From assembly GCA_004322275.1 (NCBI GenBank), contig SCTA01000023.1, positions 1 to 47,207 on the forward strand: 47,207 nt of DNA, written 5' to 3'. Shown here piece by piece: positions 1,662 to 47,207 of this stretch (positions within the stretch are counted from its first letter, which is position 1; every line of letters starts with the position of its first letter). Source of the DNA: a bacterium (GTDB taxonomy: Bacteria; Desulfobacterota; Deferrisomatia; Deferrisomatales; BM512). Made by a program: the position numbers and the translations under genes. Below the pieces are notes generated by a model that saw only the letters and a program-made list of their open reading frames with translations, made no database searches and was not told the DNA's origin.

Positions 1662-2333
1662 ATGGTTAGAATAGCAAGAATAGTTGTACCCGGATTACCG
1701 CATTACGTCGCCCAGAGGGGTTACGAAGGCCAACAGGCGTTTTTTGGGCCTGAGGACTACGCCCTCTACCTTCGCCTCGCTTCCGAGGCACTCGACGAGA
1801 ACAAGGTGAAAGCCTTGGCCTGGTCGCTTTTATTCAACCGCGTCAGCCTTCTCGTCGTTCCTTCGAGCGAGGAGGGGCTGGCAAGAGCTCTCGGTGAGGT
1901 TCACCGGCGTTACTCAAGGGAGGTCAACGCCCGTCTCGGGCGTGAAGGCCGCCTCTGGCACGCCCGGTTCAACTCCTTTACCATTGAGGAGCCCCTCATT
2001 GCCGAGACAGCCAAGTACGTAGAGCTACAGCCGGTGAGAACCGGGCTTGTGCTCACCCCGGCGGCGTATCCGTGGTCCTCGGCCACCGCGAGGCTGGCAA
2101 AGACCGCCGATCCTCTCGGCGCTCCTGCGACGCTCCCCGGAGTCCCGGACTGGTCGAGTTACATAACGGAACCCGTTTCAAAGGATTTCGCCAAGAAACT
2201 CGCCCAGCACGAGTCTACGGGACGCCCGATGGGGACCGAACCTTTCATCCTCGGACTCGAAGGCAAGCTCGGCAAGCGACTTCGCCCGAGAAAGAGGGGA
2301 AGAAAGCCAAAGATTCCGCGCATAGAGGACTAG
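1662..2333 (+). CDS. RAYT-like (REP-associated tyrosine) transposase with lost HUH motif
   Basis: The start at 1662 gives MVRIARIVVPGLPHYVAQRG, the usual beginning of Y1/RAYT transposases; the upstream extension of the frame is AT-rich and not conserved-looking. The 223-residue protein keeps the family layout: a central beta strand, GRLWHARFNSF, the YVELQPVRTGLV helix with its presumed catalytic Tyr, YPWSS, and a basic tail RLRPRKRGRKPK. The strand that normally reads MPNHVHLL, with the two metal-binding His, reads here LFNRVSLL, so both histidines are replaced (H to R, H to S). The frame is otherwise intact. Either the protein is catalytically dead or it has kept only DNA binding. The stop codon lies inside a 28-bp palindrome. 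Confidence 0.8.
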   Translation: MVRIARIVVPGLPHYVAQRGYEGQQAFFGPEDYALYLRLASEALDENKVKALAWSLLFNRVSLLVVPSSEEGLARALGEVHRRYSREVNARLGREGRLWHARFNSFTIEEPLIAETAKYVELQPVRTGLVLTPAAYPWSSATARLAKTADPLGAPATLPGVPDWSSYITEPVSKDFAKKLAQHESTGRPMGTEPFILGLEGKLGKRLRPRKRGRKPKIPRIED

Positions 2334-2345
2334 TCCTCTATGCGC
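2318..2345. repeat. 28-bp perfect palindrome spanning the RAYT stop codon
   Basis: GCGCATAGAGGACT at 2318-2331 is followed by its exact reverse complement through 2345. The TAG stop (2331-2333) is at the centre. Such a long perfect palindrome could be a hairpin recognition site for the transposase-like protein, a dimer-binding site, or part of the transcript's 3' structure. A separate terminator follows at 2360. Confidence 0.8.
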
Positions 2346-11827: not shown

Positions 11828-11998
11828 CCCGGATTTCCGTTCCCGGCAAGGAATCCCGGAGCGAAAGGGCGCGAAGTCCGGCAAACTATTTCGGCGAAGG
11901 GCAAGGAGCCCGCAGGACGCGCGACGAGACAGTATCGGGAATACGGCGAGGAGCGCGACCGAGTAGCGACGCAGCCATTCGCCGAAAGAGGAAGCCGG
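11828..11998 (-). repeat. Dispersed hairpin repeat, copy B, abutting a half copy
   Basis: The complete copy is 11878-11998. Outer arms TTTCGGCGAA (11889-11898) and TTCGCCGAAA (11978-11987) pair over 10 bp, and the central hairpin is GTAT-cggga-ATAC (11932-11944). Outermost CCGGC/GCCGG pairs frame it. On the minus strand it starts about 2 nt after the TGA of the response regulator. To its left, 11828-11877 matches the right half of copies A and D (the ATTCCTTGCCGGGAACGGAAA segment read in reverse), so two subtypes are fused head to tail. Confidence 0.85.
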
Positions 11999-23510: not shown

Positions 23511-23633
23511 CCGGCTTCCTCTTTCGGCGAATGGCTGCGTCGTTTCTCGTTCGCGCTCCTCGCCGTATAAAACGATACTGTCTTCGTCGCGCGCCCTGCG
23601 GACTCCTTGCCCTTCGCCGAAATAGATTGCCGG
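23511..23633 (+). repeat. Dispersed hairpin repeat, copy E
   Basis: CCGGC/GCCGG frame the copy. Outer arms TTTCGGCGAA (23522-23531) and TTCGCCGAAA (23613-23622) pair over 10 bp. The central hairpin GTAT-aaaacg-ATAC (23565-23578) has a 6-nt loop, one longer than in the other copies. It starts about 3 nt after the recJ stop, in sense orientation. It is the same subtype as copy B. Confidence 0.87.
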
Positions 23634-23701
23634 AGTTGTGGGTGCGTGGCTATTAAATCTGATGATTATTACGGCATACAGCCGCTACAGGGAGGGTAAA
23701 A

Positions 23702-25914: not shown

Positions 25915-26030
25915 ACAGCTTCGGCTTTTGCCGCGGGGCTTCGTCGCTTCTCGGGAGCGCTCCTCGCCGTATAAACGATACTGTCTTCGTCGCGCGCCCC
26001 GCGGGCTCCTCGCTCCTTCGCCGAAATAGT
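25915..26030 (+). repeat. Dispersed hairpin repeat, copy F (hybrid arms)
   Basis: The left side matches copies H and I (GCTTCGGCTTTTGCCGCGGGGC) while the right side matches copies B and E (CCTTCGCCGAAATAG). TTCGGC (25920-25925) still pairs with GCCGAA (26020-26025). The central hairpin is GTAT-aaacg-ATAC (25969-25981). It starts about 8 nt after the stop codon of the DUF523 gene, in sense. Confidence 0.82.
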
Positions 26031-26181
26031 TCATATTCGCCGTACAGGGGAATTCATAAAATTTTGCGTTCCCGGCGGTTAGGCGAGCTTATTTCTTGAT
26101 GCTAAAAGAAGTTACCGTTAGACTTAAACGTTGGGAAGTTATGTTTAATCCGATTTTTGGCGGGACCAAAATCAGGGGAAT

Positions 26182-34653: not shown

Positions 34654-34776
34654 ACGGCTTCGGCTTTTGCCGCGATGCGGGCGTCGCTTCTCGCTCGCGC
34701 TCCTCGCCGTAGGCCCGCTACTGTCTTCGTCGCGCTCGCTGCGGGCTCCTTGCCTCGCGCCAAAATCCTTTGCCGT
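34654..34776 (+). repeat. Dispersed hairpin repeat, copy H
   Basis: ACGGC (34654-34658) pairs with GCCGT (34772-34776). TTTTG..CGCGA (34665-34675) pairs with TCGCG..CAAAA, differing from copy I by a compensated G-C to A-T change. The central hairpin is GTAG-gcccg-CTAC (34709-34721). It starts about 7 nt after the kinase stop codon, in sense. Its interior is nearly identical to copy I. Confidence 0.85.
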
Positions 34777-34914
34777 ATTTAAAACCTGAAACGGATCCGC
34801 GCCGCCCCGCCCTTCACAACTGAAGGCCCGCGCAACAATCCCCTTTCCGCCAACCTCCCGAATCTGTAATATTCAAGGGTAAGAATTCTCTTTGCCAGTG
34901 GCGGTAAGGATTCC

Positions 34915-38071: not shown

Positions 38072-39535
38072 ATGAGACGGCTCGCTATCTCTTTACTCGC
38101 CGCCACGATGGCTGTTCCGGCGCTGGCCGCCAGCCCGATCTTCACCGACATAACCGCAAAGTCCGGCACCGGCGACCCCGGAAACGGCAAGGGAGTGGCT
38201 TTCGCCGACATCGACAACGACGGCGACTGGGATCTCTACGTTTCCAACAAGGGCGGCCCCAACAAGCTCTTCCGCAACGACGGTAAGGGCGAGTTCACCG
38301 ACATCACCGCGCAGGCGGGCGACAACGTCGGCGACGCGGGCTTCGTCATGGGCTCGGTCTTCTTCGACTACGACAACGACGGGTGGGTGGATCTCTACCT
38401 CCCTAAGGGCGGCCGCTACGAGATTGAAGCCAACCGCCTCCTCAGGAACGTCGGCGGCAAGTTCGTGGACGTGACGGAAAAGGCCGGAGTAGGCTCCAAG
38501 GAATTCACCTACGCAGCCGCCTCCGCCGACTACGACCACGACGGCTATCTCGATCTCTACCTCGCCAACTACGGCGTCAACAAGACCAACACCCTCTACC
38601 GCAACAACGGCGACGGCACCTTCACCGACGTTACCGCCAAGGCGGGGGTGGGCGACCGCTCCTGGTCCTGGATGGCCACCTGGGCCGACGTGAACGGCGA
38701 CGGCTGGGACGATCTCTACGTCGTCAACGGGCGCTACCCCGCCGGTGAGCCGAACACCCTCTACATCAACAACGGCGACGGCACCTTCAAGAACGTCTCC
38801 CGCGAATCCGGAGCGGACGATCCGAACTGGGGCCTCGGCGCAGCCTTCAACGATCTCGACAGGGACGGCGACCTCGACCTGTTCGTCTCCAACTACGTCG
38901 GGCCGAACGCCCTTTACTACAACGACGGCGCCGGCCACTTCACCAAGGCCGATCCCGTCAAGGTCGGGCTCAATCACGTTGGCTGGGGCAAAGGTCCCTC
39001 CTGGGGCGACGTTGACAACGACGGCGACGTAGACCTCTACGAAGGCGACTGCAAGGCCGCCAACCAGCTCTACATCAACAACGGCAAGGGCGTCTTCACC
39101 GACATGACCAAAGACAACCCCGCTGTCGCCTGCGCCGCCGTCCGCTCCAAGGGCACCGCCCTCGCCGACATCGACAGCGACGGCGATCTCGATCTCTACG
39201 TCATCAACTGGGCCGCTCCGAACGTGCTGGCCCTCAACAACACCGATAACGGCGATTACCTTAAGGTTCGCCTCACCGGCAGCGTCTCCAACCACATGGC
39301 GGTCGGTTCCCGCGTGTGGGTGCGCGACGGTAAGAAGCTGGTCGGCATGAGCGACCTCCAGACCTCCTCGGGCTTCTGCTCGCAGCCGCCCCAGGAACTC
39401 CACTTCGGCCTCTCCGCCGCCAGGACCTACACCGTCGAAGTCCGCTTCCCCAGCGGCCTTCGCAAGGTGGTCGAGAACGTAAAGGCCGGGCAGACCATCA
39501 CCATCGAGGAGCCCGGTGAAGTGGCGAAGCGCTAA
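38072..39535 (+). CDS. Secreted FG-GAP/VCBS repeat protein with ASPIC/UnbV C-terminus
   Basis: A 487-residue exported protein with AAAGGAGA before its ATG and a signal peptide cut at VPALA. Seven or so FG-GAP/VCBS repeats follow, each with a calcium-type loop (DIDNDGDWDLYVSNKGG, DYDNDGWVDLYLPKGG, DYDHDGYLDLYLANYG and so on) and a LFRNDGKGEFTDIT-like strand. They form a beta-propeller. The last 90 residues match the ASPIC/UnbV domain of CRTAC1 proteins. Probably a calcium-binding surface or periplasmic protein. It is followed by, and overlaps by 20 nt, the lipoprotein gene at 39516. The terminator for this gene lies inside that next gene. Confidence 0.88.
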   Translation: MRRLAISLLAATMAVPALAASPIFTDITAKSGTGDPGNGKGVAFADIDNDGDWDLYVSNKGGPNKLFRNDGKGEFTDITAQAGDNVGDAGFVMGSVFFDYDNDGWVDLYLPKGGRYEIEANRLLRNVGGKFVDVTEKAGVGSKEFTYAAASADYDHDGYLDLYLANYGVNKTNTLYRNNGDGTFTDVTAKAGVGDRSWSWMATWADVNGDGWDDLYVVNGRYPAGEPNTLYINNGDGTFKNVSRESGADDPNWGLGAAFNDLDRDGDLDLFVSNYVGPNALYYNDGAGHFTKADPVKVGLNHVGWGKGPSWGDVDNDGDVDLYEGDCKAANQLYINNGKGVFTDMTKDNPAVACAAVRSKGTALADIDSDGDLDLYVINWAAPNVLALNNTDNGDYLKVRLTGSVSNHMAVGSRVWVRDGKKLVGMSDLQTSSGFCSQPPQELHFGLSAARTYTVEVRFPSGLRKVVENVKAGQTITIEEPGEVAKR

Positions 39536-46546: not shown

Positions 46547-46668
46547 ACGGCTTCGGCTTTTGCCGCGGGGCTTCGTCGCTACTCGCTCGCGCTCCTCGAC
46601 GTAGTCACGCTACTGTCTTCGTCGCGCTCGCTGCGGGCTCCTTGCCCGGCGGCAAAATCCTTTGCCGT
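46547..46668 (+). repeat. Dispersed hairpin repeat, copy I
   Basis: ACGGC (46547-46551) pairs with GCCGT (46664-46668). TTTTGCCGC (46558-46566) pairs with GCGGCAAAA (46649-46657), and the stem continues for three more pairs. The central hairpin is GTAG-tcacg-CTAC (46601-46613). Unlike most copies it lies upstream of a gene rather than after a stop codon. Confidence 0.87.
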
Positions 46669-47207
46669 ATATAAAGGCGGATTTTGTGAAATAGACAAAC
46701 TACCTTCGAGCCGCGTAGGGTGGGCTCGGCCCACCAAAACTGATAAAATATAAATGTAATTATATAGTTGCGGGGCTATCCGCCCCGCGCCCCGGACCCC
46801 ATCTTCTTTTAGCGCCAAAAGAAGATGGGGGAGAAGAAAGGCGCGCCCCCTTTCCGCCAAAGCGCTCGTTCGTCACTCGGCGAGCTCAAATTCGCTGCGG
46901 CTCAGGTTGAGCTCGGAACATCCTCGCTCTCTCACTCGCTGGCGCCGGAGGGCGTGGGGAACGTAAAGAAGGCTCGCACACGAGAAGGCTTGTTTTTATC
47001 TCGTGTGCTCGAAGGTATTTTGTTTACAACTATCCAAACCATACGTGTAAAAATCTACCTTCGAGTCCAAAAACATTTCATGATCTCGTTTTTGGACGAG
47101 CCATCCTTTCGTCCTCCCCGTGGCCCGTAGGTGACGCAGGGAGCGGAGGCGGAAAGGGCGGCGGGGGGGTCTTAGTGAGCGCAGCGAACGAGTGCCCCCT
47201 CACGCCC
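46669..47207. other. Non-coding, hairpin-dense region at the right end
   Basis: No gene is supported. Perfect stems: GGTGGGC/GCCCACC (46719-46735, tri-loop TCG), GCGGGGC/GCCCCGC (46770-46788), CCCCATCTTCTTTT/AAAAGAAGATGGGG (46797-46830), CGAGCTCAA/TTGAGCTCG (46881-46915), GCACACGAGA/TCTCGTGTGC (46976-47008) and GTCCAAAAAC/GTTTTTGGAC (47065-47097). The word TACCTTCGAG occurs at 46701 and 47056, and in reverse at 47008. The first stem with its GTAGGG prefix resembles an intergenic palindrome found in many proteobacteria. Confidence 0.6.

Follow-up and report, generated by a model that had tools for sequence, protein, structure and literature searches.

RAYTs (REP-associated tyrosine transposases) are themselves termed domesticated transposases, and what the host gains from them is still debated. 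A parallel in concept is found in the TldR proteins, which are nuclease-dead homologues of TnpB. They have been described as RNA-guided transcription factors (PMC13418256). In RAYTs and TIRYTs, the HUH motif and the catalytic Tyr were conserved in all of the sequences aligned by De Nocera et al. (2013, PMC3733652), as they were in the sequences aligned in another study (PMC2817692). Tyr mutants without cleavage have been reported, and REP-contacting residues described (PMC8266576). The consensus given for TIRtrons is GGGGWSAS (PMC3733652; PMC6006769). A large survey kept only those sequences with complete HUH and Y motifs (722 of 924), and took missing motifs to mean probable non-function (PMC6006769). 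This filter suggests a blind spot for non-catalytic members, and in the literature we searched, coverage of which was incomplete, we found no account of RAYT-like proteins that are conserved yet lack HUH.

The window analysed here is the whole 47,207-nucleotide stretch, and it contains a gene that resembles each of these systems only in part. Like TIRYTs, the window protein has the tyrosine transposase domain, its length is similar to that of its sister genes, and its closest intact relatives, among which it is placed in the tree, are flanked by terminal inverted repeats (TIRs) with a GGGGACA core. However, the window gene and its three orthologues (together, the window clade) have no TIRs, no HUH and no conserved Asn, and three of the four have also lost the Tyr. 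With RAYT/TnpAREP (PDB 4er8) the protein shares the Y1 domain, as judged by profile, but it scores below the cut-off of the RAYT family model, no cognate REP or flanking REP hairpins were found for it, and the active site is absent. The likeness to TldR is that of a transposon-encoded nuclease that has lost catalysis and been kept as a DNA binder, although the proteins are unrelated, the window gene has no guide RNA, and its binding to DNA is a prediction.

The gene and its active site

The reading frame starts at ATG 1662 and continues for 223 codons to a TAG at 2331-2333. The end at 2345 given in the preliminary description includes the palindrome, whereas the gene itself stops at 2333. A GTG start at 1596 was rejected, since the ATG is where the orthologues start and the extension would contain the promoter-like site. 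The features of the locus are:

1628-1655, + strand: sigma-70-like promoter, TTCACA-16-CATATT, ending 6 nt before the ATG
1662-2333, + strand: RAYT/TIRYT-like gene, presumed catalytically dead, 223 aa plus stop TAG, three orthologues
1836-1853, + strand: HUH strand, codons 59-64 NRVSLL, with H60R and H62S (intact relatives have His in 90/90 at both positions)
2016-2033, + strand: Tyr helix, codons 119-124 YVELQP, with Asn123 replaced by Gln; Tyr119 kept in the window member only
2286-2312, + strand: basic tail around KRGRKPK, which we take to be AT-hook-like
2318-2345, no strand: perfect 28-bp palindrome GCGCATAGAGGACTAGTCCTCTATGCGC, centred inside the stop codon and specific to the window's genome
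2360-2402, + strand: intrinsic-terminator-like hairpin (2360-2394) and T-run, 3' of the gene

The gene is present as a single copy in its own genome (G000). As no ribosome-binding site is in view before the ATG, the position of the promoter-like pair suggests a leaderless mRNA. In G001, a sister species, TTCACA lies at an equal distance from the ATG, as read by eye from the flanks.

The Y1 transposase domain is present by profile match: a 9-sequence profile of the family matched E. coli TnpAREP (PDB 4er8) at E 6e-6. The window protein alone scored below the cut-offs of both Pfam Y1_Tnp (17.7 bits vs 23) and its sole NCBIfam match, NF047646 (REP-associated tyrosine transposase; 42.8 bits vs 80). 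It had no match in the defence library, and no viral relatives were confirmed in either of two scans. A structure model made from the window protein and one orthologue was too poor (mean pLDDT 37.7) and was left unused.

Active-site positions were set by the profile alignment to 4er8, which places the HUH histidines at residues 60 and 62, the catalytic Tyr at 119 (Y115) and the conserved Asn, the third metal ligand, at 123. Residues 59-64, read in frame, do give NRVSLL, so the loss of both histidines reported in the preliminary description is real. It is common to the whole window clade, where position 60 reads RRSS and position 62 SSSS across the four orthologues. Beyond that description, the Asn is also lost (Q, V, L and M). 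The Tyr helix and the basic tail had been described as retained, and both YVELQPVRTGLV and KRGRKPK are found in the window protein. For the tail this extends to all four members; the Tyr is kept in the window member and replaced in the three orthologues (F, I and I). The tail pattern [KR]RGR(K)P is absent from all 15 sister rows (two tails being unreadable) and occurs in 8 of 75 other intact rows.

The rest of the domain is largely retained. Among 90 intact rows, 22 columns are at least 95% conserved, and 15 of these are unchanged in all four proteins of the window clade. The seven changed columns include all of the catalytic positions: H15, H60, H62 and N123 are altered in 4/4, and M57, Y119 and S139 in part. 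By the narrower standard of the 15-row sister group, 86 columns are conserved, of which 45 are kept and 21 lost in all four proteins, with 20 mixed. Residue 100 is His in every member of the window clade and in 0/90 intact rows; the sister residue, Q100, aligns in the 4er8 profile with Q95 of TnpA_Ec, reported to contact GTAG (PMC8266576). Target recognition may thus have changed.

Descent and selection

The family was sampled with five genomes (G000 to G004). The gene is present in four of these and was not found in G003. Identity to the window protein is 70% in G001 (the named record SRXB01000036.1 also matches at 70%), 54% in G002 and 51% in G004, and none of the four frames has an in-frame stop. 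Across 12 genomes of the order, only these four genes reached a full-length score (~421 bits vs ≤71 elsewhere), with a profile that was built from the four members themselves. In G001 the locus is flanked on either side by the same genes, with those for a small secreted protein and a thioesterase lying downstream and, beyond, the genes at 351-809 and 899-1363. In G002 and G004 the small secreted gene has a relative at a distance of ~2.7 kb. Orthologues with the same losses at the same locus had been proposed as a check on the preliminary description, and this is what we see, with HUH lost in 4/4 and the locus conserved in the sister species.

A wider sample of the phylum comprised 395 genomes, 71 of which gave matches with E-values of 1e-25 or lower. 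Of 117 distinct rows drawn from these matches and from loci collected before, 113 were readable at all four active-site positions, the remaining four lacking a motif; matches interrupted by in-frame stops, and a handful of partial ones, never entered this set. Of the readable rows, 105 were intact and 8 altered, and six of the altered rows came from the family of the window.

In a tree built without the motif columns, all four members fall into one clade (100/100) on a stem of 1.04 changes per column, nested among intact, mostly TIR-flanked genes from other families. The two genera, both of one family, separate inside the clade. As one clade contains both genera, the loss is placed on its single stem, before the genera split. 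A further motif-altered gene, L110 (G078), could belong to this clade or fall outside it (p-AU 0.43).

The gene tree follows the genera, as for a vertically inherited host gene, and the gene is under purifying selection. dN/dS (NG86) was 0.229/1.39, or ~0.16, for the window gene against G001, and 0.144/1.303, or ~0.11, for G002 against G004. Identity to G001 is 70% for the gene, compared to 34, 50, 56 and 59% for its close neighbours and 68-90% for more distant genes. Under simulated neutral change, 0.13% of frames of the window gene were still intact after 0.7 changes per site in each lineage, and 3.4% after 0.2. The full-length frame remarked on in the preliminary description is therefore not a copy awaiting decay, since all four frames are open at these low dN/dS values. 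Intact-HUH close relatives with stop or frameshift alleles, named beforehand as the pattern of a merely recent inactivation, did not occur. Together, the common loss of HUH, the open frames, the low dN/dS and the shared locus in the sister species make the suggested domestication well supported, for a case made on four sequences of one clade.

Terminal inverted repeats, the palindrome and dispersed repeats

At the sister genes, a repeat such as AATTCCGGGGACACCATACTTAATT is found ~35-46 nt before the ATG and again, inverted, after the gene, and its GGGGACA core fits the TIRtron consensus. Such repeats beat all 200 shuffles at 10 of 13 sister genes, and at none of the four genes of the window clade. 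Upstream of the window gene, at 1430-1500, there are two GGGGACC, 47 nt apart, which are possibly worn TIR remnants and possibly chance.

Other altered genes show the same pairing. In the combined, de-duplicated set, TIRs flanked 85/126 genes with intact HUH and Tyr vs 0/12 altered genes (Fisher p 4e-6, a value that ignores kinship among rows that are not independent). Seven identical rows and one gapped row were dropped from this set, and flanks were shorter than 100 bases in 10/148. L066 and L070 scored a TIR in the 13-sister test and none here; the cause may be that in the combined set the downstream flank starts after the whole frame. The altered state needs at least five changes on the tree. 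A kinship-aware test found three independent pairs on supported branches (five on all) and was not significant, as so few pairs cannot reach significance; TIR loss went in the same direction in 2.1 of them on average and never in the opposite one. TIR loss by itself is common, since no TIR was detected at 41/126 intact genes either. Mobile ends were lost together with the chemistry in the window clade, and the same pairing is seen in other sampled lineages, which adds to the preliminary description.

The 12 altered genes are the four of the window clade, two of a second subfamily (B) in G002 and G004, three from one further family (L160, L164 and L178), and L184, L105 and L110. The two altered genes of subfamily B (L056, 4592-5431, and L058, 1316-2155 on the - strand) occupy a conserved position between alaS and rho, gene names that were read off the translations of the neighbours. 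Their protein has a helix-turn-helix-like C-terminal end, HUH reads EYL, and dN/dS between the two genes is 0.151/2.67; two of 46 rows lacked a motif in this reading. Where TIRs occur in the subfamily, the repeat is GGGGTCAGGTCTTG, and G002 also carries an intact, TIR-flanked relative (L057). In L160, L164 and L178 (G060, G151 and G176) HUH is intact, the catalytic Tyr is His, and there are no TIRs; dN is 0.33-0.36 in the two computable pairs, at a dS of 3.4-4.1 that is near saturation.

The stop codon is indeed centred in a perfect 28-bp palindrome (2318-2345), the only perfect palindrome above 16 bp without a spacer in the window, where plain arithmetic gives an expectation of ~0.0002 in 47 kb. 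It folds as a strong hairpin adjoining the terminator hairpin, and it may have arisen by inverted duplication at the stop codon. The idea that it is the binding target of the protein did not hold: the genome has one exact copy and two places with two mismatches, and there is no counterpart at the 3' ends of the orthologues in G001, G002 and G004. The single exact copy and the absence at the orthologues likewise rule it out as a REP or a conserved site of the gene. No common flanking hairpin or target was found around the four orthologues.

Dispersed repeats fared no better as the proposed target. An intergenic repeat of ~126 bp, found in the window at 46550-46675, 34657-34783, 25918-26043, 23514-23637 and 11874-11998, has 42 copies in G000, one weak copy in G001 and none in G002 or G004, vs five in G003, which has no gene. 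This distribution across five genomes rules it out as a cognate element. Hairpins of the form ATTCCCGC..GCGGGAAT number ten in G000 and eight in G001, with none in G002, G003 and G004, and are not associated with the gene. TIR-like units (GGGGACASNATACTTAATT) were also tried as its partner and rejected, most of them (16) being in gene-less G003, with six in G000, two in G004 and none in G001 or G002. Short units of this kind (GAGTTCGGGGGACGCAATACTTAATT type) are dispersed singly (L190-L197 in G003, L198 in G004, L186-L188 in G000), with three in a row on contig C7 of G000. A separate repeat family of 54 nt makes up Asp-rich units in a 487-aa frame at 38072-39535, whose G001 counterpart is 83% identical across the portion available.

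A proposed path from transposase to host protein

On balance we favour the reading that the window gene descends from a TIRYT that became immobilised and domesticated, and that the host keeps its protein, most likely as a DNA binder. The starting point would have been a tyrosine transposase of the RAYT-like kind with TIRs on its flanks. Both these TIRs and the metal-binding and nucleophilic residues would have been lost before the two genera parted, in their common ancestor, so that the protein could neither nick DNA nor move. Purifying selection has kept what remained, in the form of a single-copy gene that stands alone and probably has a leaderless message. Its product is presumably inactive as an enzyme. 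Most likely it would bind DNA, with the retained Y1 fold gripping a hairpin or single strand and the KRGRKPK tail perhaps taking AT-rich duplex, and would act as a regulator or architectural factor.

Could the gene instead be a recently inactivated pseudogene, with decay still to come? Loss of the catalytic residues would fit, as would the Tyr that the window copy retains, but for the window clade as sampled here this is already refuted by a loss that is common to three orthologues, by open frames with dN/dS of ~0.11-0.16, and by an identity above that of the local neighbours. A rewired enzyme that uses other catalytic residues is very improbable. His100, invariant in the clade where intact rows never have it, is a candidate for such a residue, but both HUH histidines and Asn123 are gone, and Tyr119 in three of the four.

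Two other readings give the protein a different role. It might sit on TIRtron or REP ends as a guard that blocks intact transposases. In its favour, near-identical fragments of an intact-type RAYT (PDHLHCIWRLP) lie at the ends of two G000 contigs (C31, 1-378, L049; the start of C34, L189); they probably stem from an intact RAYT of E. coli type whose repeated copies interrupt the assembly. Both G000 (6) and G004 (2) also have dispersed TIR-like units (TGGGGCAGTATACTTAATT type, allowing three mismatches at most). However, this RAYT belongs to the E. coli-type group, and G001 and G002 have the gene and zero such units while G003 has 16 units and no gene, so we consider a guard unlikely. It is also unlikely that the fold was kept for an RNA or protein partner: the basic tail would suit RNA too, but the columns that the protein retains belong to a DNA-binding family.

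Returning to the domesticated DNA binder, the window's family has two candidate proteins of this kind, the window gene (subfamily A) and subfamily B. At least five lineages in the sample have separately lost catalytic residues, and none of the 12 altered genes has TIRs. We tentatively suggest, as a possibility rather than an expectation, that paired loss of mobile ends and catalysis is a repeated route from a RAYT/TIRYT transposase to a host DNA-binding protein. If so, these proteins would form a class of regulators that derive from transposases but are non-catalytic, and that has escaped notice because sequences lacking HUH and Tyr are dropped from surveys. A clade that retains the protein without the chemistry indicates that a non-catalytic function can suffice for selection, and makes this directly testable.
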